Origin: Pagrus major
Lineage: Eukaryota > Chordata > Actinopteri > Spariformes > Sparidae
Assembly: GCF_040436345.1 (NCBI RefSeq)
Contig: NC_133232.1
Coordinates: forward strand, 35,196,265 to 35,260,264
Length of the DNA stretch: 64,000 nucleotides
Direction of reading: 5' to 3'
The notes under the pieces were generated by a model. That model was not told the origin of the DNA and did no database searches. It was given only the letters and a program-made list of their open reading frames with translations. Both the position numbers and the translations under genes were made by a program. Shown piece after piece: positions 25,856 to 59,860 of this stretch; the first letter of the stretch is position 1, and each line of letters begins with the position of its first letter.

Positions 25856-26186
25856 TGTGTTTTTACAGATGGAAAATTTTTTTCACTAGTTTCTCAATTC
25901 ATGAAAGTTCTCAAGAGAATGCAGACTCAGAGACTTAGAAAAAAAATGAAAAGGTTGATTTTTTTTGAAAAAAGTTTTTTTTTCTGAAAAGAATTTTTTT
26001 CTAAAAAAAAGTTTTTTTAAGAAAAAAAAATCAGAAGAAAATATTTTTTCTTAAAATAAAGATTCAATAGAAAAGAAGTTTCATGTGTGAAACCAAGTGG
26101 ACAAACAAATTTCTAGAGTATTTTTTTCAGAGAATTTGTTTTCATGTGTGAAAAAGTTATTTTTGTGAAAAAAGTTATTTTAGATA
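25856..26186. repeat. Left flank of the macrosatellite, diverged related repeat
   Basis: A/T-homopolymer-rich DNA sharing ordered blocks with 34725-35200: GTGTTTTTACAGATGG, GCAGACTCAGAGACTTAG, TTCAATAGAAAAGAAGTTTC and CATGTGTGAAAC. The right edge passes directly from GTTATTTTAGATA into the first full unit at 26187. Confidence 0.75.
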
Positions 26187-29100
26187 CAGATTATGTTGTT
26201 TGTTGTGTTGGCCTTGTTCTCCCTCTGAAGCAAAATAAATGCTACTTTGAACGTGGCTCCTCTGTGACACTGGCTTTCTTTTGGGGGTGGAAAGAATGGG
26301 GAGACACACATCATGGTATGTCTTGGGTTCCCCTAGACCAGTGGTGTGACAGGGGGGGGGGAAGTCAGGATTTTCAGAAAAAGTTGAAAAAAAGTCAGAA
26401 TTTTGAGGAGAAACTTTTTGGGGGTAATAAAAGTTGGACATTTAAGAGAGTTTGAAACCAAAGTTGGAATTTTGTTTTTTCTGAAAGGTAACTTTTTCTG
26501 GAAAGTAACTTTTACTAAAAAGTAACTTTTTCTAAAAGGTAACTTTTTCTGGAAAGTAACTTTTACTAAAAAGTAACTTTTTCTAAAAAGTAACTTTTTC
26601 TGAAGAGTAACTTTTTCTGAAAAGTAACTTTTTCTGAACAGTCACTTTTTCTGAACAGTAACTTTTTCTGAAAAAAGTTATTTTAGTAAAAAGAAATTCA
26701 GGGAAGTGCATCAGGCTGGACCTGCTGATTGGCTTGCTCAGCTTGATTGCTGACACAGGATTGGTCAGAGGAAGGAGAGGAGCCCTTTTTGAAGCGCCAG
26801 CTGACTGCAATCTCCATCTCCACCAACCTTCCACCTCCAACATGGACCAGTGTCTAGTCTGACTCGTGTTTTGTTTGTGATGTATACTGAATAAACTGAT
26901 TAAACCGATGTAGGAGTTGGGTAAGATTTTGTCTTTTGTTTATATTTCTGATTTGTGGCAGGAAGTTAGGGGTAAACAGATTATGTTGTTTGTTGTGTTG
27001 GCCTTGTTCTCCCTCTGAAGCAAAATAAATGCTACTTTGAACGTGGCTCCTCTGTGACACTGGCTTTCTTTTGGGGGTGGAAAGAATGGGGAGACACACA
27101 TCATGGTATGTCTTGGGTTCCCCTAGACCAGTGGTGTGACGGGGGGGAGTCAGGATTTTCAGAAAAAGTTGAAAAAAGTCAGAATTTTGAGGAGAAACTT
27201 TTTGGGGGAATAAAAGTTGGAAATTTAAGAGAGTTTGAAGCAAAAGATGGATTTTTTTTCCTGAAAAGTAACTTTTTCTGAAAAGTAACTTTTATTGAAA
27301 AGTAACTTTTTCTAAAAAGTAACTTTTTCTGAAGAGTAACTTTTTCTGAAGAGTAACTTTTTCTGAAAAGTAACTTTTTCTGAAAAGTAACTTTTATTGA
27401 AAAGTAACTTTTTCTGAAGAGTAACTTTTTCTGAAAAAAGTTACTTTAGTAAAAAGAAATTCAGGGAAGTGCATCAGGCTGGACCTGCTGATTGGCTTGC
27501 TCAGCTTGATTGCTGACACAGGATTGGTCAGAGGAAGGAGAGGAGCCCTTTTTGAAGCGCCAGCTGACTGCAATCTCCATCTCCACCAACCTTCCACTTC
27601 CAACATGGACCAGTGTCTAGTCTGACTCCTGTTTTGTTTGTGATGTGTACTGAATAAACTGATTAAACCGATGTAGGAGTTGGGTAAGATTTTGTCTTTT
27701 GTTTATATTTCTGATTTGTGGCAGGAAGTCAGGGGTAAACAGATTATGTTGTTTGTTGTGTTGGCCTTGTTCTCCCTCTGAAGCAAAATAAATGCTACTT
27801 TGAACGTGGCTCCTCTGTGACACTGGCTTTCTTTTGGGGGTGGAAAGAATGGGGAGACACACATCATGGTATGTCTTGGGTTCCCCTAGACCAGTGGTGT
27901 GACGGGGGGGGGAAAGTCAGGATTTTCAGAAAAAGTTGAAAGAAGTCAGAATTTTGAGGAGAAACTTTTTGGGGGTAATAAAAGTTGGACATTTAAGAGA
28001 GTTTGAAACCAAAGTTGGAATTTTGTTTTTTCTGAAAGGTAACTTTTTCTGGAAAGTAACTTTTTCTGAAAAGTAACTTTTATTGAAAAGTAACTTTTTC
28101 TAAAAAGTAACTTTTTCTGAAGAGTAACTTTTTCTGAAGAGTAACTTTTTCTGAAAAGTAACTTTTTCTGAAGAGTAACTTTTTCTGAAAAAAGTTATTT
28201 TAGTAAAAAGAAATTCAGGGAAGTGCATCAGGCTGGACCTGCTGATTGGCTTGCTCAGCTTGATTGCTGACACAGGATTGGTCAGAGGAAGGAGAGGAGC
28301 CCTTTTTGAAGCGCCAGCTGACTGCAATCTCCATCTCCACCAACCTTCCACCTCCAACATGGACCAGTGTCTAGTCTGACTCCTGTTTTGTTTGTGATGT
28401 GTACTGAATAAACTGATTAAACCGATGTAGGAGTTGGGTAAGATTTTGTCTTTTGTTTATATTTCTGATTTGTGGCAGGAAGTTAGGGGTAAACAGATTA
28501 TGTTGTTTGTTGTGTTGGCCTTGTTCTCCCTCTGAAGCAAAATAAATGCTACTTTGAACGTGGCTCCTCTGTGACACTGGCTTTCTTTTGGGGGTGGAAA
28601 GAATGGGGAGACACACATCATGGTATGTCTTGGGTTCCCCTAGACCAGTGGTGTGACAGGGGGGAGTCAGGATTTTCAGAAAAAGTTGAAAAAAGTCAGA
28701 ATTTTGAGGAGAAACTTTTTGGGGGAATAAAAGTTGGAAATTTAAGAGAGTTTGAAGCAAAAGATGGATTTTTTTTCCTGAAAAGTAACTTTTTCTGAAA
28801 AGTAACTTTTATTGAAAAGTAACTTTTTCTAAAAAGTAACTTTTTCTGAAGAGTAACTTTTTCTGAAAAGTAACTTTTTCTGAAAAGTAATTTTATCTGA
28901 AAAGTAACTTTTTCTGAAAAAAGTTATTTTAGTAAAAAGAAATTCAGGGAAGTGCATCAGGCTGGACCTGCTGATTGGCTTGCTCAGCTTGATTGCTGAC
29001 ACAGGATTGGTCAGAGGAAGGAGAGGAGCCCTTTTTGAAGCGCCAGCTGACTGCAATCTCCATCTCCACCAACCTTCCACTTCCAACATGGACCAGTGTC

Positions 29101-32100
29101 TAGTCTGACTCCTGTTTTGTTTGTGATGTGTACTGAATAAACTGATTAAACCGATGTAGGAGTTGGGTAAGATTTTGTCTTTTGTTTATATTTCTGTTTT
29201 GTGGCAGGAAGTTAGGGGTAAACAGATTATGTTGTTTGTTGTGTTGGCCTTGTTCTCCCTCTGAAGCAAAATAAATGCTACTTTGAACGTGGCTCCTCTG
29301 TGACACTGGCTTTCTTTTGGGGGTGGAAAGAATGGGGAGACACACATCATGGTATGTCTTGGGTTCCCCTAGACCAGTGGTGTGACGGGCGGGGGGGGGG
29401 GGGAAGTCAGGATTTTCAGAAAAAGTTGGAAAAAGTCAGAATTTTGAGGAGAAACTTTTTGGGGGTAATAAAAGTTGGACATTTAAGAGAGTTTGAAACC
29501 AAAGTTGGAATTTTGTTTTTTCTGAAAGGTAACTTTTTCTGGAAAGTAACTTTTTCTGAAAAGTAACTTTTATTGAAAAGTAACTTTTTCTAAAAAGTAA
29601 CTTTTTCTGAAGAGTAACTTTTTCTGAAGAGTAACTTTTTCTGAAAAGTAACTTTTTCTGAAGAGTAACTTTTTCTGAAAAAAGTTATTTTAGTAAAAAG
29701 AAATTCAGGGAAGTGCATCAGGCTGGACCTGCTGATTGGCTTGCTCAGCTTGATTGCTGACACAGGATTGGTCAGAGGAAGGAGAGGAGCCCTTTTTGAA
29801 GCGCCAGCTGACTGCAATCTCCATCTCCACCAACCTTCCACTTCCAACATGGACCAGTGTCTAGTCTGACTCCTGTTTTGTTTGTGATGTGTACTGAATA
29901 AACTGATTAAACCGATGTAGGAGTTGGGTAAGATTTTGTCATTTGTTTATATTTCTGATTTGTGGCAGGAAGTTAGGGGTAAACAGATTATGTTGTTTGT
30001 TGTGTTGGCCTTGTTCTCCCTCTGAAGCAAAATAAATGCTACTTTGAACGTGGCTCCTCTGTGACACTGGCTTTCTTTTGGGGGTGGAAAGAATGGGGAG
30101 ACACACATCATGGTATGTCTTGGGTTCCCCTAGACCAGTGGTGTGACGGGGGGGGGGAAAGTCAGGATTTTCAGAAAAAGTTGAAAAAAGTCAGAATTTT
30201 GAGGAGAAACTTTTTGGGGGAATAAAAGTTGGAAATTTAAGAGAGTTTGAAGCAAAAGATGGATTTTTTTCCTGAAAAGTAACTTTTTCTGGAAAGTAAC
30301 TTTTTCTGAAAAGTAACTTTTTCTGAAAAGTAACTTTTATTGAAAAGTAACTTTTATTGAAAAGTAACTTTTTCTAAAAAGTAACTTTTTCTGAAGAGTA
30401 ACTTTTTCTGAAAAGTAACTTTTTCTAAAGAGTAACTTTTTCTGAAGAGTAACTTTTTCTGAAAAGTAATTTTATCTGAAAAGTAACTTTCTGAAAAAAG
30501 TTATTTTAGTAAAAAGAAATTCAGGGAAGTGCATCAGGCTGGACCTGCTGATTGGCTTGCTCAGCTTGATTGCTGACACAGGATTGGTCAGAGGAAGGAG
30601 AGGAGCCCTTTTTGAAGCGCCAGCTGACTGCAATCTCCATCTCCACCAACCTTCCACTTCCAACATGGACCAGTGTCTAGTCTGACTTGTGTTTTGTTTG
30701 TGATGTGTACTGAATAAACTGATTAAACCGATGTAGGAGTTGGGTAAGATTTTGTCTCTTGTTTATATTTCTGATTTGTGGCAGGAAGTTAGGGGTAAAC
30801 AGATTATGTTGTTTGTTGTGTTGGCCTTGTTCTCCCTCTGAAGCAAAATAAATGCTACTTTGAACGTGGCTCCTCTGTGACACTGGCTTTCTTTTGGGGG
30901 TGGAAAGAATGGGGAGACACACATCATGGTATGTCTTGGGTTCCCCTAGACCAGTGGTGTGACGGGGGGAAATCAGGATTTTCAGAAAAAGTTGAAAAAA
31001 GTCAGAATTTTGAGGAGAAACTTTTTGGGGGAATAAAAGTTGGAAATTTAAGAGAGTTTGAAGCAAAAGATGGATTTTTTTTCCTGAAAAGTAACTTTTT
31101 CTGGAAAGTAACTTTTTCTGAAAAGTAACTTTTATTGAAAAGTAACTTTTTCTAAAAAGTAACTTTTTCTGAAAAGTAACTTTTATTGAAAAGTAACTTT
31201 TATTGAAAAGTAACTTTTTCTGAAGAGTAACTTTTTCTGAAAAAAGTTACTTTAGTAAAAAGAAATTCAGGGAAGTGCATCAGGCTGGACCTGCTGATTG
31301 GCTTGCTCAGCTTGATTGCTGACACAGGATTGGTCAGAGGAAGGAGAGGAGCCCTTTTTGAAGCGCCAGCTGACTGCAATCTCCATCTCCACCAACCTTC
31401 CACTTCCAACATGGACCAGTGTCTAGTCTGACTCCTGTTTTGTTTGTGATGTATACTGAATAAACTGATTAAACCGATGTAGGAGTTGGGTAAGATTTTG
31501 TCTTTTGTTTATATTTCTGATTTGTGGCAGGAAGTCAGGGGTAAACAGATTATGTTGTTTGTTGTGTTGGCCTTGTTCTCCCTCTGAAGCAAAATAAATG
31601 CTACTTTGAACGTGGCTCCTCTGTGACACTGGCTTTCTTTTGGGGGTGGAAAGAATGGGGAGACACACATCATGGTATGTCTTGGGTTCCCCTAGACCAG
31701 TGGTGTGACGGGGGGAAATCAGGATTTTCAGAAAAAGTTGAAAAAAGTCAGAATTTTGAGGAGAAACTTTTTGGGGGAATAAAAGTTGGAAATTTAAGAG
31801 AGTTTGAAGCAAAAGATGGATTTTTTTTCCTGAAAAGTAACTTTTTCTGGAAAGTAACTTTTTCTGAAAAGTAACTTTTATTGAAAAGTAACTTTTTCTA
31901 AAAAGTAACTTTTTCTGAAAAGTAACTTTTATTGAAAAGTAACTTTTATTGAAAAGTAACTTTTTCTGAAGAGTAACTTTTTCTGAAAAAAGTTACTTTA
32001 GTAAAAAGAAATTCAGGGAAGTGCATCAGGCTGGACCTGCTGATTGGCTTGCTCAGCTTGATTGCTGACACAGGATTGGTCAGAGGAAGGAGAGGAGCCC

Positions 32101-33932
32101 TTTTTGAAGCGCCAGCTGACTGCAATCTCCATCTCCACCAACCTTCCACTTCCAACATGGACCAGTGTCTAGTCTGACTCCTGTTTTGTTTGTGATGTAT
32201 ACTGAATAAACTGATTAAACCGATGTAGGAGTTGGGTAAGATTTTGTCTTTTGTTTATATTTCTGATTTGTGGCAGGAAGTCAGGGGTAAACAGATTATG
32301 TTGTTTGTTGTGTTGGCCTTGTTCTCCCTCTGAAGCAAAATAAATGCTACTTTGAACGTGGCTCCTCTGTGACACTGGCTTTCTTTTGGGGGTGGAAAGA
32401 ATGGGGAGACACACATCATGGTATGTCTTGGGTTCCCCTAGACCAGTGGTGTGACGGGGGGGAGTCAGGATTTTCAGAAAAAGTTGAAAAAAGTCTGAAT
32501 TTTGGGGGAAAGTTGGAATTTTGAGGAGAAACTTTTTGGGGGTAATAAAAGTTGGACATTTAAGAGAGTTTGAAACCAAAGTTGGAATTTTGTTTTTTCT
32601 GAAAGGTAACTTTTTCTGGAAAGTAACTTTTTTCTGAAAAGTAACTTTTATTGAAAAGTAACTTTTTCTAAAAAGTAACTTTTTCTGAAGAGTAACTTTT
32701 TCTGAAAAGTAACTTTTTCTGGAAAGTAACTTTTTCTGAAAAGTAACTTTTAATGAAAAGTAACTTTTTCTGAAGAGTAACTTTTTCTGAAGAGTAACTT
32801 TTTCTGAAAAGTAACTTTTTCTGAAAAGTAACTTTTTCTGAAAAAAGTTACTTTAGTAAAAAGAAATTCAGGGAAGTGCATCAGGCTGGACCTGCTGATT
32901 GGCTTGCTCAGCTTGATTGCTGACACAGGATTGGTCAGAGGAAGGAGAGGAACCCTTTTTGAAGCGCCAGCTGACTGCAATCTCCATCTCCACCAACCTT
33001 CCACTTCCAACATGGACCAGTGTCTAGTCTGACTCGTGTTTTGTTTGTGATGTATACTGAATAAACTGATTAAACCGATGTAGGAGTTGGGTAAGATTTT
33101 GTCTTTTGTTTATATTTCTGATTTGTGGCAGGAAGTTAGGGGTAAACAGATTATGTTGTTTGTTGTGTTGGCCTTGTTCTCCCTCTGAAGCAAAATAAAT
33201 GCTACTTTGAACGTGGCTCCTCTGTGACACTGGCTTTCTTTTGGGGGTGGAAAGAATGGGGAGACACACATCATGGTATGTCTTGGGTTCCCCTAGACCA
33301 GTGGTGTGACGGGGGGGAGTCAGGATTTTCAGAAAAAGTTGAAAAAAGTCAGAATTTTGGGGGAAAGTTGGAATTTTGAGGAGAAACTTTTTGGGGGTAA
33401 TAAAAGTTGGACATTTAAGAGAGTTTGAAACCAAAGTTGGAATTTTGTTTTTTCTGAAAGGTAACTTTTTCTGAAAGGTAACTTTTTCTAAAAAGTAACT
33501 TTTTCTGAAGAGTAACTTTTTCTGAAAGGTAACTTTTTCTAAAAAGTAACTTTTTCTGAAAAGTAACTTTTTCTGAAAAGTAACTTTTTCTAAAAAGTAA
33601 CTTTTTCTGAAGAGTAATTTTATCTGAAAAGTAACTTTTTCTGAAAAGTAATTTTATCTGAAAAGTAACTTTTTCTGAAAAAAGTTATTTTAGTAAAAAG
33701 AAATTCAGGGAAGTGCATCAGGCTGGACCTGCTGATTGGCTTGCTCAGCTTGATTGCTGACACAGGATTGGTCAGAGGAAGGAGAGGAGCCCTTTTTGAA
33801 GCGCCAGCTGACTGCAATCTCCATCTCCACCAACCTTCCACTTCCAACATGGACCAGTGTCTAGTCTGACTCCTGTTTTGTTTGTGATGTGTACTGAATA
33901 AACTGATTAAACCGATGTAGGAGTCAGGATTT
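26187..33932. repeat. Macrosatellite: ten ~730-855-bp tandem units in two types
   Basis: Taking the CAGATTATGTTGTT motif as origin, units start at 26187, 26977, 27740, 28494, 29223, 29984, 30800, 31546, 32292 and 33147, so spacings are 790, 763, 754, 729, 761, 816, 746, 746 and 855 bp. Each unit has: a block with AATAAA; a G-run after CAGTGGTGTGAC; a segment rich in AGTCAGAATTTT; an internal 17-bp minisatellite; a near-invariant block with two ATTGG boxes and a short ATG frame; and a second AATAAA. Length differences come mostly from the copy number of the 17-mer. Type A reads GGGGGTAATAAAAG ... GAAACCAAAGTTGG. Type B reads GGGGGAATAAAAG ... GAAGCAAAAGATGG. The order is A-B-A-B-A-B-B-B-A-A. 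Reverse-strand open frames recur in every unit because the units are near-identical. Confidence 0.97.
26478..26690. repeat. Nested 17-bp minisatellite (first of ten)
   Basis: Tandem 17-mers GTAACTTTTTCTGAAAA with variants (CTGAAGA, CTAAAAA, ATTGAAAA, CTGGAAA). Equivalent tracts recur in each unit, for example 27259-27450, 28030-28200, 28778-28925, 29522-29692, 30272-30505, 31083-31255, 31829-32000, 32598-32860 and 33450-33690. The last 17-mer continues into GAAAAAAGTTA(C/T)TTTAG, forming a potential hairpin. Confidence 0.9.
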
Positions 33933-34200
33933 TCAGAAAAAGTTGAAAAAAGTCAGAATTTTCAGAAAAAATTTAAGGGAAAAAAAGTCTGAATTTTGGG
34001 AGGAATGTTAGAATTTTGAGGAGAAATTGTTGGGAGGAATAAAAGTCAAAGTTTTTAGATAAATTTGAAACAAAAGTTGGAATTTTCAGAAAAAGTTGAG
34101 GGAAAAAAGTCAATATTTGAAAAGAAAATTTGATGGGGAAAAAGTCAGAATTTTCAGAAAACGTTGAAAAAAGTCAGAATTTTTGTTTTTATTTTAAAGT
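33923..34200. repeat. Rearranged right end of the macrosatellite
   Basis: At GATGTAGGAGT the sequence leaves the expected GGAGTTGGGTAAG continuation and jumps to the GGAGTCAGGATTTTCAG segment that normally follows the G-run. About 430 bp of a unit is missing, with GGAGT shared at the join. Beyond it, diverged AGTCAGAATTTT / AAAAGTTG segments continue to about 34190. Confidence 0.8.
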
Positions 34201-34724: not shown

Positions 34725-35200
34725 TTCTCAAAACAGGAGAGAACGTAGACTCAGACTTAGAAAAAGGATCTTAGCAAATAATTCAAGTGTGAAAACGAAT
34801 GAAAATTTATTTTTTTCTGAAGTTTTTTTTAAATATTTTTCTGAAGTTTACTTTTTCTGAAAAAAAAATTTTTTTTGTGAATACATTTATTTTAGAAAAA
34901 AAATATTTTTCTGAAAAGAAAAATTCAATAGAAAAGAAGTTTCATGTGTGAAACTGAGTGAAAAAAAATTTCTGGAGAATTTTTTCCCAAAAATGTTTCA
35001 AGAGAATTTTGTATGAAACTTAATGTTTTTCTTTTCATGAAAAAATCCAAGAGTCTTCTTTTTGTGTGAAACAAAATTAAGTTTCATGTGTGAAGCTGAG
35101 TGGAATATTTTCATTTCTGAATTTTTTTCATGTCTCAAGTCATAAAAACAGGAGTGTGTTTTTACAGATGGAAAAAAAATAAGGAACTTAGGATGATCCT
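34725..35200. repeat. Right flank related to the left macrosatellite flank
   Basis: Shares GTAGACTCAGACTTAG, AAATTCAATAGAAAAGAAG, TTTCATGTGTGAAAC, TTTCTGGAGAATTTTTT and GTGTGTTTTTACAGATGG with 25856-26186. Block order is partly permuted, as expected of diverged tandem copies of an older repeat. It may lie inside the eif4e 3' UTR. Confidence 0.7.
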
Positions 35201-36007: not shown

Positions 36008-39000
36008 TCAGGCAACAAACTTGTTCTTGGTTGTGGAGCTGCTCTTTATGGCCGTGTCTGCATGTGACTGATATCCGATGATCACTTTTGGCGGAACGCC
36101 TAATCTCTCTTTATACACACGCCTACAGAGGCAGGGAAAGAAAAAAGACGTGTAAAGCACATTAGCAAATGCTAAAAGAAAACATTTTTAAACCTTCATA
36201 TGTGACAATAAACGACACAAGAAGCCCTACAGAGACAGGCATGTATATTAAATTATCTCTATTCTCCTTCAGTAGCACAGAGGTTGTCCACTGATGCTGT
36301 ATCTTCAGACATATTTTGCTCAACAGGGATTTCCTGCACAGCTCTGAAATACAGAAGAGTATTAGGGCCAGGGGTGAGAAAAAAAAAAAAAAAAATTTTT
36401 ATTTTGCACTTCAAGAAAAAAAAATCCCTGGAGTGTAACTTTCTGTGTGTAGTGTAACAATCTCTTCAAAGTCCTAATACAGACAACTACACTGTGTTTA
36501 TGAGCTAAAAGAGAAATTATTTCTTTGTTACTAAAGCAGATTCTGAAGTACAGTTTCACCAATTCATCTACACAAGGCACTTTGTTGAGTTGTGCTGTTT
36601 AATGTAGTCTCAAAAGGTTGAATTTAATCTTGAAATGTCAACTTTATTCTCAACATTTCAACTGTATTCACACAATTGTATTTAAACTTTATTCTCGACA
36701 TTCAGACTTTTTTCTTGAAGTGCATAATGACAAAAAACCTTATTTTTTCTCCTTAGCCCTGGCCCTAATACTCTTCCATACTGACACCCTTAAATATAAC
36801 ACTGGGGTTTTCTTTCCAGCTCTTGAACTAACTGGGTATCTATCACTGTAAAAGGAGTGTAAAATTCAAGTAGCTCATTTCAGCTATAGGGGTTTAAATA
36901 CTCATAAGTAAAAGTTACACACAACATTTGTACATGTGTAAAAAGGGCTATTGACACGTTCAACTTTGTCACCAATATTTGTGGCATGTTTGAGTTACCC
37001 TATGTGTGTGATGGCTTCTTTGTTTTCGTAGTCCGTGGTCCATATTGCGATTTTGTCTCCTTTGGCTCGGACGTTAATGACGGCTCCACAAACGTCGTCA
37101 CTGTGGTCATCAAAGGCTTCACCGATAAGACACAAGAGCTGCAGGAAAAACAAACATTATTTCCAAATGCCTTGTAATTGGGGAGCAGTTCCTTTTTAAT
37201 GGCAGACATTTTGACTTCTCACAGGAGGAAAAGCACAGGTGTTACTCTTAACAATGACTCAAGTTTCCCAGGAAGCCATGACAGGCCACAGTGTGCCAGC
37301 ATGCACTCTGGAAAATGACAGCATCTTTCACAGAAGATCATGCTGAGCTCGGTGTGTGGATTGACAGAGGTGTACTGCTGTGTAGGAGCGCCTCCTCCCG
37401 TCTTCTTCATTTATTTATTTTTCCTGTTGGCTGCAAGTAATGTCAAAGCAATTTCATTGTGCTTTTTTATACCAACATTATCTTACAACAGACAGATTGA
37501 AACATTAAATCCCTGTATGTTACAAGATATGAAAGTACTGCCTTGAATTCTGTTTTTGTAATTATTTTGCATTTGCTCCCAAGTGTGTTAGACACTGTGG
37601 GGGTTACAGCTGGAAGAATAAGGCTAAGCTTGTCACAAATGCCATAAAAATAAATCTCAGCAACACTTTACTTTAATGGAATAAACATATGTAGTTATAG
37701 TCAGCTCTACTCGTGCCCTAATGATGGAGCCGTGATATTATAAGCCTATTAATTTACATATTCGCACAGTTGATTTTTTCTGACAGCTGTAACTGTGCTG
37801 CTGTCAGCCTGGATTATGTGTTTAACTTATTTTTCTATTCATCTAATATATAGCTTGCTTTTTGTTTGTAACATATTCCAGTCTGCTGCCAGTAGTAGTC
37901 CATGTTTGCGAGTATTCATACACTGACAACACCTCCCCTTTTATGTGACTGTGCGCATGTCTAGATGTGGAAAAACCTGTTGACTTATCGACTTGATAAC
38001 CACCTTCATGTGAACACTTTGTGTGTTTGTAAGTGAAGCCAGATAACTGAAAAATATCCCGGTTATGTTGAACTTGCTTTGTAGTACAGAAACCAAAGCA
38101 GCTAAAAAAAGTGATTTATTTACACAAATGCTTTTACTGCTGTGATGCCACAAAATGTATTCCCCCGAAAAAAGAATACAGGTAAACTAGGGATGCCCCG
38201 ATTGTGAAATTCTGGGCCACTGATGATACCGATGTTTGTCTGTCATTTTGTTTTTCTTGTCATTTATTCACCTTTTGTGCTGGGAAAAAAAAAAAAAATC
38301 TTTAAAAAGCAACTGCTTCAAAAGCCTGCTATACAACTACCTACTCAGTAATATGCGTTTATATAGCCTTACAACTGGATTGCAGGGATGTCACAAGCCA
38401 GTAGCTCAAAAAAGTGCCGGTGCTAAACTGATATGTCACAACAGATAAACACCGGCCACTGCCATCATTGAATTTTAGTTAACTTGCCGATAGGGGGCGA
38501 TATTGGTTCATCCCTAGACAAGACATAAAAAGGTATCATTGAAGTATCAATACTCGACAGGACTGAACATACCGTCTCCAACCAGAACCGATCCAGGTCT
38601 GCTTTACGCTGCTGCTTGGACAGAGTTATCAGCCAGCGGCCACCTCGTCGATTCTGTTCATCCTCCCACATTGGCTCAATCCCATCCTGCATCCAAATAA
38701 AGGTCAAAGTTTACAACACTATAAATATTCCACGATGAACGAAGGCTTTAATTTGTAAGTTTCCCCTTTAGATCACGACCAAAGGTAATTAAGTTCTCAA
38801 GTTCCGTTGTTGTTCCTCTAAAAGCATAATCTGAATTTAAAAAATAATCTGCAGATCATTGCAACAGTCAAGAAACAGCTGGCCTTTTTAAATATGCATT
38901 TGGTAACCATGTCAGCATGTAAATGTGGCAACTGAAGTAGCATCTGACAGCAGGAACTTGTCACCACCAAAATGCATTACAAGATGCCACCTTTCCATCC

Positions 39001-42000
39001 TCTGTTTCCAACTATCCAACATTATTTATGACAGATGAGATCCAGTTTCAGTTGTGACTAATGTTCATAACTAATCCTTTATAGGCTCACTGTGGCCACT
39101 GGAGAAGATGAAGTGAAGTGAAGTGCAGCCTGACTTGGTGCGAGTATCTGGAAAAAACTATGTTTTGATTCTCCCCACCCAATGAGTACATGCATCACTG
39201 AGGATGGAGGCTCACAAATCAGCAAAACTCAGATGAATGAATTACCAACAAGGCCATGAAAGTCCAAGTTTGCCACTCTTATTTCCTTTGTAGTTCGACA
39301 GTGAGGGCTATGAATTGACTGGAATTATAAAACACAGAAAGAAAATTGTATTTCTTTTTGGTTCTGTGAGGCACAGGAAACTCAGTTTGCTGGTTTGTGG
39401 TCCATTTGAGGGCTCAACCACACACGTCATTGTTATTTATTGAGACTTGACCTCATAGGTCATGCGAAACCATGATGCGGCATGCCTTTGCCACCGGATG
39501 TCACAGTTTTATTTGCCCCTTCGCTCGCATAGAATGAGGTGAACAGGAGCTGATATTCTGCATCGTTAATTCCTTGAACGTGCGAGAGTGCACCAACGCT
39601 GTCCTGTCCCCCTAAATTAATGTGATTATCTATTAACATGGGAAGTTGAGACAGTTCAGAGTTTTAAGTGGGTATAATTATACAATGTCGAAAGACAGTT
39701 ATAAGAGCACTCTTACCTTGAAGAGCGAGTAGTCACAGCCAGACAGCAAGTTACTTGATAGCTGAATGTGATTGTATAATCTGTGAAAGATGGAGAATAT
39801 TTTATGTATGAGAGTATGTTACAGAAAACCTTTTAGCAGCCAGGCTGAAAACATGGTGCAACATAACTTCACACATCACCAACAACTGCCACTGTGAATC
39901 ATGAATAGCTCTGATGTTGTGCAATTCTACATCTTTTAATGCAGACATGTGCAGCATATAGCGATAATAAACTTACGCCCAGAAGTCTTCCACAGTGTCA
40001 ACTTTGGAGATGAGACGAAGATTAGATTGCCATGTTTTGCTTTTGTCGTTCTTGAAAAACCAAAGAGCCCACCTGCAAATCAAAGAAGGGTTAGACTGAC
40101 AGCTGCTTTCCCTCATTTGTCATGTTGCTCATTAACAACTTGTTTCACTGGAAGAGATGTGCAGATTCACAATAAAACTACTGAACCTGATATAAGGGCG
40201 AGATAAACCTGCTCAGACCCTAATGCCTTTTGAGTGTCTTAACTGATAAGACAAATATCATGTGACCCATAAGGACTTAACTCTTCAATGTCCCATCATT
40301 AAAAATCAGAACTGTATTAATGCACTTGTTCATCATGTTTTCTGCATGACAACTTCTTGACTCTACTTGCTGGGGAACAAGGAGTAAAACTAGACTTACT
40401 TGTTCTGTAATGGATGCTTAATGTACGATTCAGGACTCACGACCTTTTGTTTCTTCTGAGGATTTGCCGCAACTGAAGAGGACACCTAGGAAACACAACG
40501 GTACAAAGACGCATTAAAACTTTCAGAGAATTGTCAAACAAAATGTTGGGGCTTTTTAAAATTGCTGCGTTTCTAATGTGCCATCTGTGATGACAGCTGC
40601 TGGCACTGTTATGCTGCATTTAATCATCTAACTTGTCTTTAGTTTTATTGTCGTAATTGAAATTTTGGAAAAAAAAAAAGGTTATGCTCGTGGCTATGAT
40701 ACTTTGGAGAGTATATGAGAGTGGATAGGAGGTATAGGGCTGTAAATAAGGATTATTTTCACTGTCGAGTAAACTTGTTCGGGCTATAAAATGTGAAAAA
40801 TGGCGATCAGTGTTTCCTCATGCCGTAGATGAAACCCTCAAAAATCTTGTTTTGTTTAATTTACTGATGGAGTAAAGAAAACCACAAATATTGACATTTA
40901 AGAGGCTGAAATGAGGATTTTTTCCTAAAAAAAATTAAACCATTTAATCGATTCTCAAAATAGTGCGTGATTTGTTTAATAATTAACGGATTACTTGCTG
41001 CAGCTTTATGGGGTATTTAAGTAGTTTTAAGGAGGAATGTGCATTTTTTTGTATCGTTTACTTTTGTTGTGTGTTCCTCTGTATTACTTCACTGCTTCTG
41101 TGGATTTTGATGATAAAGTAAATTTGATTTGTTTTGACCCTTATCCATGAGGCCGATATTAAAATCTTAAGTTTGCCTTTGTGTTGCGGTCTTTGGACAA
41201 TCTTAAACTATTTTTGCATATAACTTGACTAATTTGGCCACGCCATCTTAAAACCATTCCTTGGTCCCTCGTCAATCAATATAAAATCTACAGTCAGAAA
41301 TCTTGGTGTCATATTTGATTCCCAACTGAACTTTGAACCATGTCGGTAATCTCATTACTTCCATCTAAGAAACATTAATACATTTAAATCAGTGCCTATT
41401 CTTTCCTCCCTTCACTGGCTGCCAGTTAAATTCAGGATTTATCATAAGATAACTTTTAAAGCCCAACACGGTCTGGCTCCCAGTTACATTACTGAACTAT
41501 TGACTCCCTACGCTACAAATCAAATCGCAACCTAAGATCATCCAACCTACCCTCGCTGGACGTACGTAGGTCAAGGCTGGTGACCGAGGGCGAACAGGGT
41601 TTAACTATCAGAGCTCCACGATCAGGCAAAACACTCCCTGTTTTGAGGTCATTGCTTAAAACTTTTTTTTTTTTTTTTAATATAGGAAAACCTTTTTGAT
41701 GACAGATCTGTAAATTCGACATGTATTCTAGTGTTTTACTTTTCTTATCCATTTCAATTCAAAACTTTATTGTGGACTCACGGTCCGGATAAAAGACAAG
41801 ATATGACTTAAAATAAATGACTTACAAACTCACAAAAAAAAGAGCTTTTAAATGGCTTAAAAACAGTGACAGAGGCAGCTTACTGACTGGAACTGGTGGC
41901 TTGTGGTGCTAAACCTTATGTCTCGAATAAAACCAGGATGATTTTATGTTCAGACACATTAAAAGGTGGCAAATAAATTTAAACATGAGATTTCTTAAAA

Positions 42001-44751: not shown

Positions 44752-49206
<4,455 letters not shown>

Positions 49207-49320
49207 GTTGGTTTCCTCAGCAGAGGGGAGGGGGCGGAGCCTAACCGGAAGGAGTTAACCATCCGGACCAATCAGAAACGAGAACGGGCAAGCGGACGCG
49301 TGACGTAGGCACGACGGTGG
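49207..49320 (-). promoter_or_regulatory. adh5 promoter
   Basis: Directly upstream of the adh5 ATG is a GC-rich TATA-less stretch. It has a GC box (GGGGGCGGAGC, plus strand, about 49230), an ETS-like ACCGGAAGG (49244-49252), a CCAAT box (ACCAATCAG, about 49267) and a CRE-like TGACGTAG (about 49301). This combination fits a ubiquitously expressed class III ADH. The boxes are seen; function is inferred. Confidence 0.6.
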
Positions 49321-50160
49321 AAAAGAGCTTAATTTTTAATTTATTTTGTATTATTTTTGAGTCTATTTCATGTTTGTATCACATTAAAGCCCAGAATCAG
49401 AAGAACACCGGAGTTATAAATGTTTTTTAAAAATCTCACAGTAACTTCATTATTTTTTTATGTAGTGGATATAAATACTAACATGTGAAAGTGAAAGCCT
49501 TCTTAGCCTTAAAAATAGATGTGACAAAATAAATGACAGCTGACCGACACTGTCCCCTGACACAGACTGAGTTGGTCTTAAGGTGGATAAGTGGAACCAA
49601 AACAACACCTATTTAATTGTTTGTATTTATACTGAATGTGAGCTAATTCTTCAAAACACAAAATAAAAATTCTGACATCACAGAATAAACAATCAAATAA
49701 CTCATTTTGAGTAGTGTTTATCGTCTTCGCCCTCATTAAATGTTGCAGAATCTATAAATATGAAAAATACTTCATCCATCTAAAAATTTTAACTACTGGA
49801 CACAAGATGTCTCGTACTTCACTGAAAGGTCCAGTACTACTCGCACGGTAGGCAAGTTTCCCATCACACCTTTGCACGTTGGATCATGTTATGTTTGTGT
49901 TTTGGTGAAACTCAGATCTAAAGGTGAAACCATGTTGCTGCAGGCATCGTTCTGCACAGTAAAGAGTGCATCCCTCAGTGAAATAAAACAAGCAGAGCAC
50001 GTTGTGGAGGGGACGGGCACCATAAAATCTTCATATGTTTTGACATCTGCTGAAACATCACTTTCTTTATAGTGTGTTTTTCCTATTCCAAGTAATGCCC
50101 TCGGGGGAAATAACACACCTTAGGATGGCGTCGTATTACGGATACCTGAGAGATTAAATC
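49321..50160. other. Spacer between adh5 and gar1
   Basis: AT-rich spacer between the adh5 promoter and the presumed gar1 3' end. No repeat or gene recognised. Confidence 0.5.
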
Positions 50161-50183
50161 AATGACACAGTTACAAAGCACCC

Positions 50184-50189
50184 TTTAAT
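50184..50189 (-). terminator. Probable gar1 polyadenylation signal
   Basis: ATTAAA on the minus strand, about 530 nt past the gar1 stop codon. No nearer AATAAA was noticed. Confidence 0.45.
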
Positions 50190-50719
50190 CAAGGTCTTCA
50201 ACAAAAATGTGACAATATCCTGTTTAAGATTTTACAAACTATGGGTATTAAAATGTTTTCAACTAATAGCATAAAAGCCTGATTTACCACACATGTTCCC
50301 ATATCTCAGGAAATTAACACATTGAGGTTTGTGAATGCATCTTTTGAAATCTTATTCAAAAGTATAAACATCTGTCATGGCCTAACATTTTAACACAGTC
50401 AGCGCAGGATAATGACAATGCCTGTTCACTGTTCACAAAGGGACCCAAATATCCTCCCAGACAGGCAGAAAAGGTCCTCGTTATGTTACAAACAAGCATA
50501 CATATGAACCTTTTTAAATACAAATCATGGAGATCCATCAGTCATTCAAAACTAGTACAAAAATAAAACAAAAAGAGAAAATCCACTCAAGTTCTACAAA
50601 GTGAGGCAATGTCCATATTCTGAGTCCATCAGGCCGAACACTGATATAAAACGCAGCCTTTGTTACTTGTGTGGCAGAAGACTGGAATGGGACGGTCACA
50701 CCAGAGCACCACAGTCGGA

Positions 50720-52972
50720 TCATCTCCCACCTACAGGCAAACAACAAAAAATTAGTACCTTTAAACGTGGAAAGACGAAGAACAATTTGTAGAAGACTGA
50801 AAAAGGACCAACCTCTGAATCCACGTCCGCCACCGCCTCCTCTTCCTCCTCTGAAGCCTCCACCGCGTCCACCTCCGAACCCTCCACCGCGGCCGCCAAA
50901 TCCTCCGCCGCGACCACCTCCACCTCTGCCACCTCGAAAACCGCCTGGGAAAAACAAATAGAAGCAAAACAGTATTAACTTAACGTCGGAAACACTGAGC
51001 TTTTTTAGTTTGACAGCTTACTCTAGAATAAGCCTGCCCCGGTGTGACGAGCTACACATTGATAAACAATAGGAGACGGGATTTATTAAAATGAGACAAA
51101 GTTAGATGCCTCACCTCCGCGACCGCCGCCTCTACCCCCGCCTCGGCCTCCTCTTGGCGGACCTTTCTCTCCTGGCGGCCTGGGGAGGAATCTCTGCAGC
51201 GGGAGGAGCTTCATCGGATCTATATAAAACTAAAGAGGCATCGCAAATTACATACAGTGTAACACACAGAGGAACTGAAATGTTTGCAAGGATTAAAATT
51301 AACCATTTCTAAAATGTTAATGTCTGTTTTACCTTCTGCATTTTCTTAAATGACGATGCCTTCATGTTATCAGACAGTTTGACTGAAAAATACTGCACGG
51401 GTGGATTAAGGAATCAACGGGATTTTGAGCAGCAACAATTACACTTAATCTTGATAAATTGACCTTTATTTTTGTTAAACCACAAGATGTGTCAGAGGTC
51501 CAGAGACTGAACTACAACAGAAAGGATACAAAGTCACGGAGCTGGCCGAATATCTCATCCACCTTCCCGATCTGCTCCTTGTTTTCCAAGTACACTGGGG
51601 CGTTGAAGTAGGGAACTTTGTTTTCTTCTGTTGTACACTTGCACACAATGTCATCTTCACACGGATGCACGAACTCTCCCAGTGCTGTACAGTGGAAACA
51701 CAATGAACCACAGTTAGTTGTGTGAAAAAGCTGTTTTGGCAGACTTTGCTCAAGGACATTGGACATTTTTGGACATTTAAACAGCAAAAACAAACCAAGG
51801 GAAAAAGAATCATCAACAAATAAAACAAAACAAACAAAATGAAGGAAGTTGGCAAAAAAGGAAATTCTGAAACCCTGAAGGTATAAACACAAGTCACTAA
51901 TGAGGACCATGTGTACATGGTTAGTCTTATGATTGCATGATGATCACTCAAATTATGTAATTTCACAAGTTTCCAGTTCCCCATTTCACATCTGGGTTTT
52001 TTAAATGTCACATTCACATCACATGGTGTGAATGATGGCCACAAGATATTTTCATAACTTGTAACTTGTTAAAAAAAACCCACGGTTGCAGTTTGTTGCG
52101 GAGCATGAAAAGTTATGTGTATTATTGACAACACAGTACTTGATTACTGCGACTAACACTTTGCCTTTTTTTGCTTTTCAGGCACTTCCACATTATTGAG
52201 CCCAAAGTCTGACATCATAGTCGATATTAAAAGGTGTTGGTGTGGGCGGTATTTACAGGCCGGGTACTGGTAATTATGGTCATTTTCCTGACCACACAAT
52301 TAAGTGTTTAGTGGCAAGTGTGGTTACTGGAAGTGGACCCGGCTGTTTTTGACCTTTGCAAGCTGCTCCACCCACTGACTGCATCTAGTTAACTCCCTCT
52401 GCCCCGTCAAAATAAAAGCAACTTAGTAAAGTTTTGTCACAAAGAAATTCAGTCTTACAATTTTAATATTTACAATATCAATACAAACTCTGAAATATTT
52501 ATTTTCCATCGCTGTTCTCAGAAGAAAATGAGGTCCCCAGAACACTGTTTGAAGCTAGAAAGGTGGCAGGGTCCGCCACACATCAGTGCAGTTGTGTTGT
52601 CCTTTAGAGTCAGTTTGTGTTTCAGTCAATGAAGATCTCTCTCTTCTGATCAAACTCTTCTTTCCTAAACTACACACTGCACCTTTAATCACACAGCTCA
52701 GTCACCAGCCTCAGCTTCTGCAACATATTTTCCCAACATCACAGGTTCGTGACTCGGTTCTTACCGACAACATATTCTGGAGGACCGTAGTCTTGTCTGA
52801 ATCCACCTCTGCCTCCACCCCGTCCGAACCCACCACCTCTGCCTCCTCCAAACCCTCCACCGCCTCTGCCTCCTCCAAATCCACCGCCTCTGCCTCCACC
52901 ACCTCGGTTAAATCCTCCGCCGCCACCTCGGTTAAATCCTCCGCCTCGTCCTCCTCCTCCTCTGAAAGACAT
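50720..52972 (-). CDS. gar1: H/ACA ribonucleoprotein complex subunit 1
   Basis: Core protein of nucleolar and Cajal-body H/ACA RNPs. With dyskerin, NOP10 and NHP2 it guides rRNA/snRNA pseudouridylation and is part of telomerase. Six minus-strand coding exons: 52765-52972, 51530-51684, 51333-51392, 51115-51229, 50813-50944 and 50720-50730, giving 226 residues (human 217). Order: an N-terminal glycine/arginine-rich domain starting [11 protein letters not shown] (about 1-60); the conserved core [16 protein letters not shown] ... [39 protein letters not shown] and [28 protein letters not shown]; then a second RGG domain. The last exon adds only the codons ...GGR-stop. The donor of exon 5 is a weak GTTGGT. 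A non-coding 5' exon is implied, with donor GTGAGT after 53224 and acceptor before 52988. Proline-rich open frames on the opposite strand are shadows of the RGG repeats. Confidence 0.97.
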
Positions 52973-53224
52973 TTTCTCTTCAAGTCGTCTGTAAAACAAA
53001 CAGGGGAGAGGAGAATCAGTCAGGACAAGACGAAGACTGTGAGCTGACCCCGTGGCAGCACTGCACAAGCTAAGCTAACATGCTAGCTCGCTTAAAACCA
53101 TTAAAACTCCCCAAATTCCGCCTCATTTACGTCCATAAATAAACACGTCGTGTCTTCTCTTCGGGATGTAAACGCTGACACGTCTTCAACACTTTCTACA
53201 CACAGTTAAAGCAGATTACTCACA

Positions 53225-53551
53225 ACTTCTGACCCGCGAGCTGCAGCTATTTACTCCAGCGGACGTCCATGCGATGACAACACGTGTGGGGACGGGCTGC
53301 CGTAAAGCTGCTCTCCGGTGTCGGCAAGTGTCGTAAACCCGGAGTCTCTATCGCGCACGCATCATGTTTAAAAGCACAAGCTGTGGAGCTGGTGACTCAT
53401 CCGGACCAGAAGATAACAGGCTCGGGTACTTTGACTTGTCAGATATCTGTGTGCAACTTCTTCATTCACGCGTCTGTAAATATACAGAAAATATAATATA
53501 AATACTTTGTTTTAAACGCAGGTGGTTTAAAGTCAGACACACCAGGCAGCG
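53225..53551. promoter_or_regulatory. Shared divergent promoter of gar1 and the class I-like ADH
   Basis: About 0.3 kb separates the inferred gar1 first exon (minus, donor side at 53224) from the ADH start codon (plus, 53552). It is CpG-containing, TATA-less on both sides by eye, and has a perfect E-box CACGTG at 53281-53286. Transcription start sites are not known. A shared bidirectional promoter is inferred from geometry. Confidence 0.5.

Positions 53552-59860
<6,309 letters not shown>

Follow-up and report, generated by a model that had tools for sequence, protein, structure and literature searches.

How a tandem array of two alternating kinds of unit arose and grew beside a housekeeping gene is the question raised by a 64,000-nucleotide stretch of Pagrus major chromosome C18 (NC_133232.1, positions 35,196,265 to 35,260,264 of the forward strand; hereafter the window, whose coordinates are used below). 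The initial annotation, made from the letters alone, described a macrosatellite of ten units of types A and B, grown by duplication of an A-B dimer and then of monomers. We analyzed the array within a single genome assembly (785.9 Mb, 25 contigs). It is very probably a small satellite derived from the long terminal repeat (LTR) of a retrotransposon and later reshaped into a mosaic by unequal exchange, conversion, and slippage.

The array consists of 10 head-to-tail units of 729–855 bp, from 26187 to 33926, ~7.7 kb in total. Every unit starts with CAGATTATGTTG, which matches the window 10 times, always on the plus strand, against 0.02 matches expected by chance; 0/100 shuffles of the window reached this count. 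Cutting at these matches bears out the ten tandem units first described, and the two marker strings of the types agree in 10/10 units, giving the expected order A B A B A B B B A A:

26187–26976, plus strand: unit 1, type A, 790 bp
26977–27739, plus strand: unit 2, type B, 763 bp
27740–28493, plus strand: unit 3, type A, 754 bp; minisatellite code that of unit 5
28494–29222, plus strand: unit 4, type B, 729 bp
29223–29983, plus strand: unit 5, type A, 761 bp; minisatellite code that of unit 3
29984–30799, plus strand: unit 6, type B, 816 bp
30800–31545, plus strand: unit 7, type B, 746 bp; sequence identical to unit 8
31546–32291, plus strand: unit 8, type B, 746 bp; sequence identical to unit 7, 925-bp exact tract at lag 746
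32292–33146, plus strand: unit 9, type A, 855 bp; ~20-bp insertion in common with unit 10
33147–33926, plus strand: unit 10, type A, 780 bp; incomplete, ~59 bp short

The variation in length is mostly due to a 17-bp minisatellite, TTTTTCTGAAAAGTAAC, which Tandem Repeats Finder (TRF) detected in each unit at 8.7–14.7 copies, with further contributions from a G-run and a ~20-bp indel. Written as codes of 17-mers, the minisatellites of units 3 and 5 are the same, as are those of units 7 and 8, and the other six are distinct, which makes eight codes in ten units. The label macrosatellite denotes long arrays whose units measure at least a kilobase. With units of 0.73–0.86 kb and an array of 7.7 kb, it is not appropriate here.

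Origin of the repeat unit

We searched the genome with the unit core (window 27455–27900) and scored the best 40 of 124 candidates. In line with the proposed check for other loci, the search returned a second array on C18, described below, and dispersed copies matching the core at 79–94% on 11 contigs (C1, C2, C3, C6, C7, C14, C15, C18, C19, C21, and C24). In many of the dispersed copies, two parts that are adjacent in the unit sit ~100 bp further apart. Among the 18 dispersed loci that we fetched, 11 have both TGT..ACA ends, with a span of 451–685 bp according to the motif used. Direct repeats of 4–5 bp beside these ends identify three independent insertions: CTAC (five loci with common flanks), TCAG (L045), and AGGAG (L034 and L035, with common flanks). 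Two loci, L043 and L047, carry a primer-site-like string after the LTR copy. The 3 kb adjoining each of these two copies, read in three frames of the LTR strand and compared with Pfam, encode a SCAN domain in both cases (E 2e-8 and 7e-8) and an RT_RNaseH domain in one (E 1.8e-13). The LTR ends, the direct repeats, and the SCAN and RT_RNaseH domains beside the copies together argue for the LTR origin of the unit.

According to PMC3424704, a Gmr1-like Gypsy/Ty3 element supplied the SCAN domain, which stems from its Gag. The SCAN matches beside 2/2 LTR copies and the RT_RNaseH match beside one resemble such elements with their SCAN-type Gag; unlike them, the Pagrus arrays hold only the LTR. From its Pfam domains, the source element is classed as a dispersed, probably Ty3/Gypsy-like retrotransposon. 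This basis of the class weighs against the reading, as does the lack of a clear direct repeat at L044 and L031, where both LTR ends are present.

Five LTR copies were compared with the unit, and each matches it in two pieces. The first covers LTR positions ~121–299 in copies with a full start, ending at 270 in L047 and spanning 90–261 in L032, where the LTR start is absent. The second runs from ~387–413 (358 in L032) to the LTR end. At the border of units 2 and 3 they lie as follows:

27475–27646, plus strand: LTR piece ~121–299 with two ATTGG boxes (starts 32–33 bp apart), 90–93% identical to the five LTR copies
27659–27903, plus strand: LTR piece from ~387–413 to the last bases, with AATAAA, 87–89% identical to the five LTR copies

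The unit is without the first ~120 bp of the LTR, and ~110 bp of LTR between the two pieces are replaced by 12 bp. Judged from these alignments, it is a 5′-truncated, internally deleted LTR (~415 of ~630 bp) joined to degenerate AGTCAGAATTTT repeats and the 17-bp minisatellite. The double ATTGG motif is present in 20/20 units of both arrays and in 13/18 dispersed loci. The AATAAA context of the LTR is found in 19/20 units, the remaining one being a partial unit of the second array, S0, that begins downstream of AATAAA.

Two other identities of the unit were considered and dropped. Its ATG, AATAAA, and splice-like strings had suggested a piece of a protein-coding gene, an idea given up once the dispersed element with its LTR ends was found. 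The primer-site-like string after L043 and L047 had suggested a retroviral LTR, which gave way to Ty3/Gypsy after the SCAN and RNase H matches.

Several dispersed copies have been multiplied together with their surroundings. L034 and L035 (C2, 10.259 and 10.273 Mb) are 13.5 kb apart and agree both in their outer flanks and in the AGGAG direct repeat; they were at first taken for the two LTRs of one element, and the agreement of the outer flanks makes them parts of a duplicated segment instead. In L038, L040, L041, L042, L046, and L039 (on C24, C19, C14, C3, C6, and C21, respectively), the LTR is part of a longer sequence common to these loci. Over ~1.5 kb including the LTR, the alignment of L040 with L046, L042, L041, and L038 is at 97–99%, with further matches downstream, and L039 has the right part of this longer sequence in common. 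In this group, a more extensive duplicated or mobile segment has taken a single LTR insertion along with it.

The components of the unit that do not come from the LTR have other distributions. For a 27-base sample of the minisatellite, all 29 exact matches in the genome fall in the two C18 arrays (20 in the second array, nine in the window array), a count of exact matches beside which diverged relatives could exist. The region directly upstream of the minisatellite, which contains the block discussed in the next section, gave 44 matches in the genome search, 20 of them within the two arrays. Its relatives elsewhere are 75–96% identical over 45–98 bp on C5, C7, C12, C15, and C23, and a diverged copy (81%) lies in the right flank of the window array at 34004–34086. 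On C23, 16 listed matches on both strands occupy 12.7 kb (24526027–24538714), and this cluster may be another, older array of degenerate repeats. The flanks of the window array contain the following repeats:

25938–26126, plus strand: left flank degenerate repeat, 75% identical over 199 bp to 34791–34985
33922–34183, plus strand: right flank, degenerate AGTCAGAATTTT repeats

The first of these and its counterpart at 34791–34985 form a direct repeat bracketing the array, which may go back to an older duplication or belong to a degenerate repeat that is dispersed. The motif TTTTC[A/T]GAAAA occurs in the degenerate repeats on both sides of the LTR-derived block, with one site on the left and four on the right within ~280 bp.

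The A and B types

The MAFFT alignment of the ten units contains nine columns with fixed A/B differences (264, 278, 296, 298, 303, 308, and 312–314). All of them fall within one ~50-bp block located directly upstream of the 17-bp minisatellite, as in unit 1:

26425–26476, plus strand: ~50-bp block with every fixed A/B difference (alignment columns 264–314)
26476–26674, plus strand: 17-bp minisatellite TTTTTCTGAAAAGTAAC, 11.7 copies (TRF)

The types had been read from two linked differences; the linkage stands, but it extends over nine columns of a single short block. We compared the true labels with all 252 ways of calling five of the ten units A. For the block, the true labels are the best (2/252, the labelling and its mirror). 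For the 5′ and 3′ cores they are ordinary (136/252 and 158/252), and distances within and between types are nearly equal (0.0098 vs 0.0096 in the 5′ core, 0.0096 vs 0.0095 in the 3′ core). A tree of the units had been proposed as the check on A and B as two clades. The whole-unit tree does contain an A clade, with a local support of 0.98, but this clade is there because the block carries its signal: without the block it is gone and the types are mixed, unit 4 (B) pairing with unit 10 (A) while the A units 1 and 9 and the A units 3 and 5 form separate pairs. Furthermore, 4/8 informative core sites of the window array show all four combinations with the A/B type and 11/28 core site pairs are incompatible with a single tree, some of the informative sites bordering a G-run where the alignment is loose. 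On the strength of the label tests, the block-less tree, and the site incompatibilities, the most fitting reading of A and B is that of a single short segment in two versions rather than of two whole-unit lineages. Two results of the label test count against this: a weak A/B signal in the minisatellite (10/252), where the linkage reaches slightly beyond the block, and a rank of 24/252 for the whole unit without the block. More generally, a type that is called from few linked bases need not stand for a unit lineage and may instead reflect a single short segment that has been shuffled.

The second array on C18

The second array (C18:34308302–34316138, corresponding to L029 and L030) lies 0.9 Mb from the window array on the same strand, and the unit junctions of the two arrays are identical. 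It has nine unit starts (S1 to S9) with spacings of 785, 782, 854, 782, 785, 856, 782, and 783, preceded by the 667-bp partial unit S0. Both types are present. The A form of the block, in three units, is one base off the window A block, and the B form has some states in common with window B and others of its own. From the second unit on, the order is B A B B A B B A.

This array is a trimeric higher-order repeat (HOR), A-B1-B2, with ~2.7 copies over eight units. Units three apart differ at few sites (S4/S7 1, S5/S8 3, S6/S9 5, S2/S5 6, and S3/S6 8), B units not three apart at 5–9 (S4/S5 5, S7/S8 9), and the A units S3, S6, and S9 differ from B units at 25–32. Four exact tracts of at least 500 bp were found (1037, 552, 531, and 516 bp), all at lags of 2421–2423 or 4842, that is, three and six units. 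Similarity at lag 3 was reached by 2/5000 shuffles of the unit order, by 1/5000 without the block, and by 1/5000 on the cores; lags 1, 2, 4, and 5 are all ordinary. Some observations tell against the trimer: the distinction between B1 and B2 rests on few sites, S2/S5 with six differences fits little better than S2/S4 with seven, and a good part of the lag-3 signal comes from the periodic A/B order itself. All five B units have one minisatellite code. The initial annotation had placed an unusual dimeric HOR beside a housekeeping gene; the gene is indeed there, but the dimeric periodicity is not significant, and the HOR is trimeric and belongs to this second array.

Shuffling of the types is also visible in the second array, where 2/13 informative core sites show all four A/B combinations and 23/78 site pairs are incompatible. 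A further sign of it is the ~20-bp insertion, which in the window array is carried by A units 9 and 10, but in the second array by all five B units. Since A and B forms occur in both arrays, the two forms probably diverged before the arrays did, or the types have since passed between them.

The second array is not a simple copy of the whole window locus: apart from low-complexity repeats, the flanks examined in the window (1.7 and 2.6 kb) are unrelated to those of the second array (5.3 kb on its left, ~5.4 kb on its right). A cfap20-like gene (CFA20 domain, minus strand) is its neighbor. In the 3.9 kb to its right, five of six frames gave one weak Pfam match only (PF19211, 15.5 bits against a cut-off of 29.7), taken as due to chance. 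At its right end, the array continues past the internal deletion of the unit, with positions 127–353 of the L044 LTR in one piece. Beyond the cfap20-like gene, ~2 kb to the left of the array, lies a separate LTR start (L044 LTR 1–387) that includes a 172-bp stretch identical to 4/10 window units. Three LTR copies compared with the window matched nothing beyond its array but CA/TG runs. The second array is therefore probably the founder, as its right end runs into LTR sequence that the units lack and the three copies find no further LTR in the window; against this order, it is deduced from a single boundary.

History and significance of the arrays

The array in the window lies in the following context:

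36008–40077, minus strand: eif4e, with four exons at about 40.0, 38.7, 37.1, and 36.1 kb (IF4E domain)

The housekeeping gene announced beside the array is thus eif4e. The inferred stop codon of its C-terminal exon is at 36010–36008, and the near end of the array is ~2.1 kb beyond it. To the right of eif4e, 3 of 10 open frames submitted gave the domains of an ADH-type gene (minus strand), gar1 (minus strand), and a second ADH-type gene (plus strand); the stretch from one ADH-type gene to the other, with gar1 in the middle, covers 45832–57773. These genes and the genome size would suit a teleost fish. On the other side, the six frames of the window from 6.0 to 25.9 kb contain no Pfam domain at E 0.1, and a 20-bp minisatellite, TCTGGAGGAATAAACACCCC, is present in 9.9 copies at 1736–1932. 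A permissive Rfam search of 24–36 kb yielded 65 matches, none at the family gathering score (best 34.3 vs 64.5 bits), which we take as chance matches to A/T-rich repeats.

We propose the following history. The LTR would have lain between mutually similar low-complexity repeats, both with TTTTC[A/T]GAAAA, and unequal exchange between the two repeat sides may have produced the first tandem copies, a step suggested by the resemblance of the flanking repeats. The present mosaic would then have come about through more unequal exchange, together with gene conversion over short tracts and slippage of the 17-bp repeat, and the A/B variants of the ~50-bp junction segment would have been shuffled relative to the remaining unit sequence. 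Duplication of a three-unit block A-B1-B2 would have given the second array its trimeric HOR. For the window array, a duplication of one monomer is the sole event that is clearly recent: units 7 and 8 are identical, and their exact tract, 925 bp long at lag 746, is the only one to reach 420 bp, which supports a recent duplication of one unit, as the initial annotation had it.

Growth of the window array by duplication of a ~1.5-kb A-B dimer followed by monomer duplications, with conversion blurring the signal, is unlikely. Strict alternation of the first six units is found in just 12/252 arrangements of five A and five B, but the runs in the complete order are matched or exceeded by 90/252. 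Units 3 and 5, at dimer distance, differ at only 5/754 positions and have their full minisatellite code in common, a picture that would also be expected if a dimer had been duplicated and its B partner later converted, and that counts against our reading; the partners of these units, 4 and 6, nevertheless differ at 15/729. The A clade of the whole-unit tree and the three-unit block duplicated in the sister array also speak for a dimer. Against it, the mean lag-2 distance of 0.0231 is reached by 523/5000 random unit orders, by 755/5000 without the block and 2226/5000 on the cores; the count of 523 is the lowest of lags 1–5, none of which shows significant higher-order periodicity in the window array. 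There is also no exact tract of at least 420 bp at the dimer lag. An A-B dimer step is possible, but growth by such steps as first proposed is not supported by these lags and tracts.

A wrong copy number or order in the assembly of one or both arrays, for instance at units 7 and 8 or in the trimers, is very unlikely. Near-identical repeats are typical sites of assembler failure, and they abound here, with the 925-bp exact tract of the identical units 7 and 8, the single difference between S4 and S7, and the one minisatellite code of five B units in the second array. The window, however, contains no N, eight different minisatellite codes distinguish its ten units, the compared flanks are unrelated apart from low-complexity repeats, and the contigs with fetched loci are chromosome-sized (23–40 Mb), all of this being evidence at the level of the assembly. 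That the array is kept for a function, such as LTR-derived promoters or terminators downstream of eif4e, appears highly improbable. Paired ATTGG boxes with starts 32–33 bp apart in 20/20 units, the LTR AATAAA context in 19/20, and the distance of ~2.1 kb to the eif4e stop would fit this idea, yet the boxes were inherited from the LTR, where 13/18 dispersed loci have them, the units are too alike for their conservation to be informative, the LTR start is absent, and the Rfam search found no family at its gathering score. There is no need to assume a function for the array.

The origin from an LTR, followed by exchange, conversion, and slippage, thus remains our preferred account. We tentatively extend it to both arrays: a satellite founded by one LTR at one site might later have given rise to the other array on C18, both having the old A/B segment in common, and just eight units might have been enough for one array to reach a HOR, a state that the other did not attain. 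Against our account, weaker arrays elsewhere could have escaped a search in which only the best candidates were scored.

HOR structure in LTR-derived arrays is already known, and the Pagrus pair is a new, small case. As in alpha-satellite HORs, the second array repeats a block of distinguishable monomers (A-B1-B2) with an identity above that of neighbors, but it has only eight units, 2.7 trimers, and a ~0.8-kb unit, without known centromere link. Xp22.33 is far from the centromere. A 61-bp variable number tandem repeat at Xp22.33 has a complex higher-order structure (PMC2588610). The nearest parallel is also human: MaLR LTR arrays (MSTA/THE-1) with ~3.5-kb units form 25 arrays on nine chromosomes, the three largest being pericentromeric, and those on chromosomes 13, 18, and 21 have higher-order repeats of six monomers (PMC2588610). 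Like the Pagrus arrays, these are tandem arrays of LTR retrotransposon fragments with HORs in some, as in the second array. Their units are 4–5 times longer and include internal regions, whereas one LTR fragment together with minisatellites makes up the Pagrus unit, and the human arrays are spread over nine chromosomes instead of forming two arrays on one (C18, 38.0 Mb) with a HOR in one only. According to a 2025 review (PMC12628747), satellites can originate in an LTR segment or in short arrays located within a transposon, and they expand when repeated parts undergo unequal exchange. The origin and growth proposed for the Pagrus arrays are the same, except that the exchange sites would be the low-complexity repeats flanking the LTR and not two LTRs.

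The value of the pair is that the same unit forms, in one genome, one array with a HOR and one without. HORs are usually studied in huge centromeric arrays, in which the founding events are lost. If this extension to both arrays is true, the step from a monomeric satellite to a HOR would here be caught in a single genome, with the LTR, the junctions, and the flanks still visible. The two arrays are short enough for single long reads and for typing across individuals and sister species, and their small size makes the order of events, from LTR truncation and first tandem copy to block duplication and exchange, directly testable.

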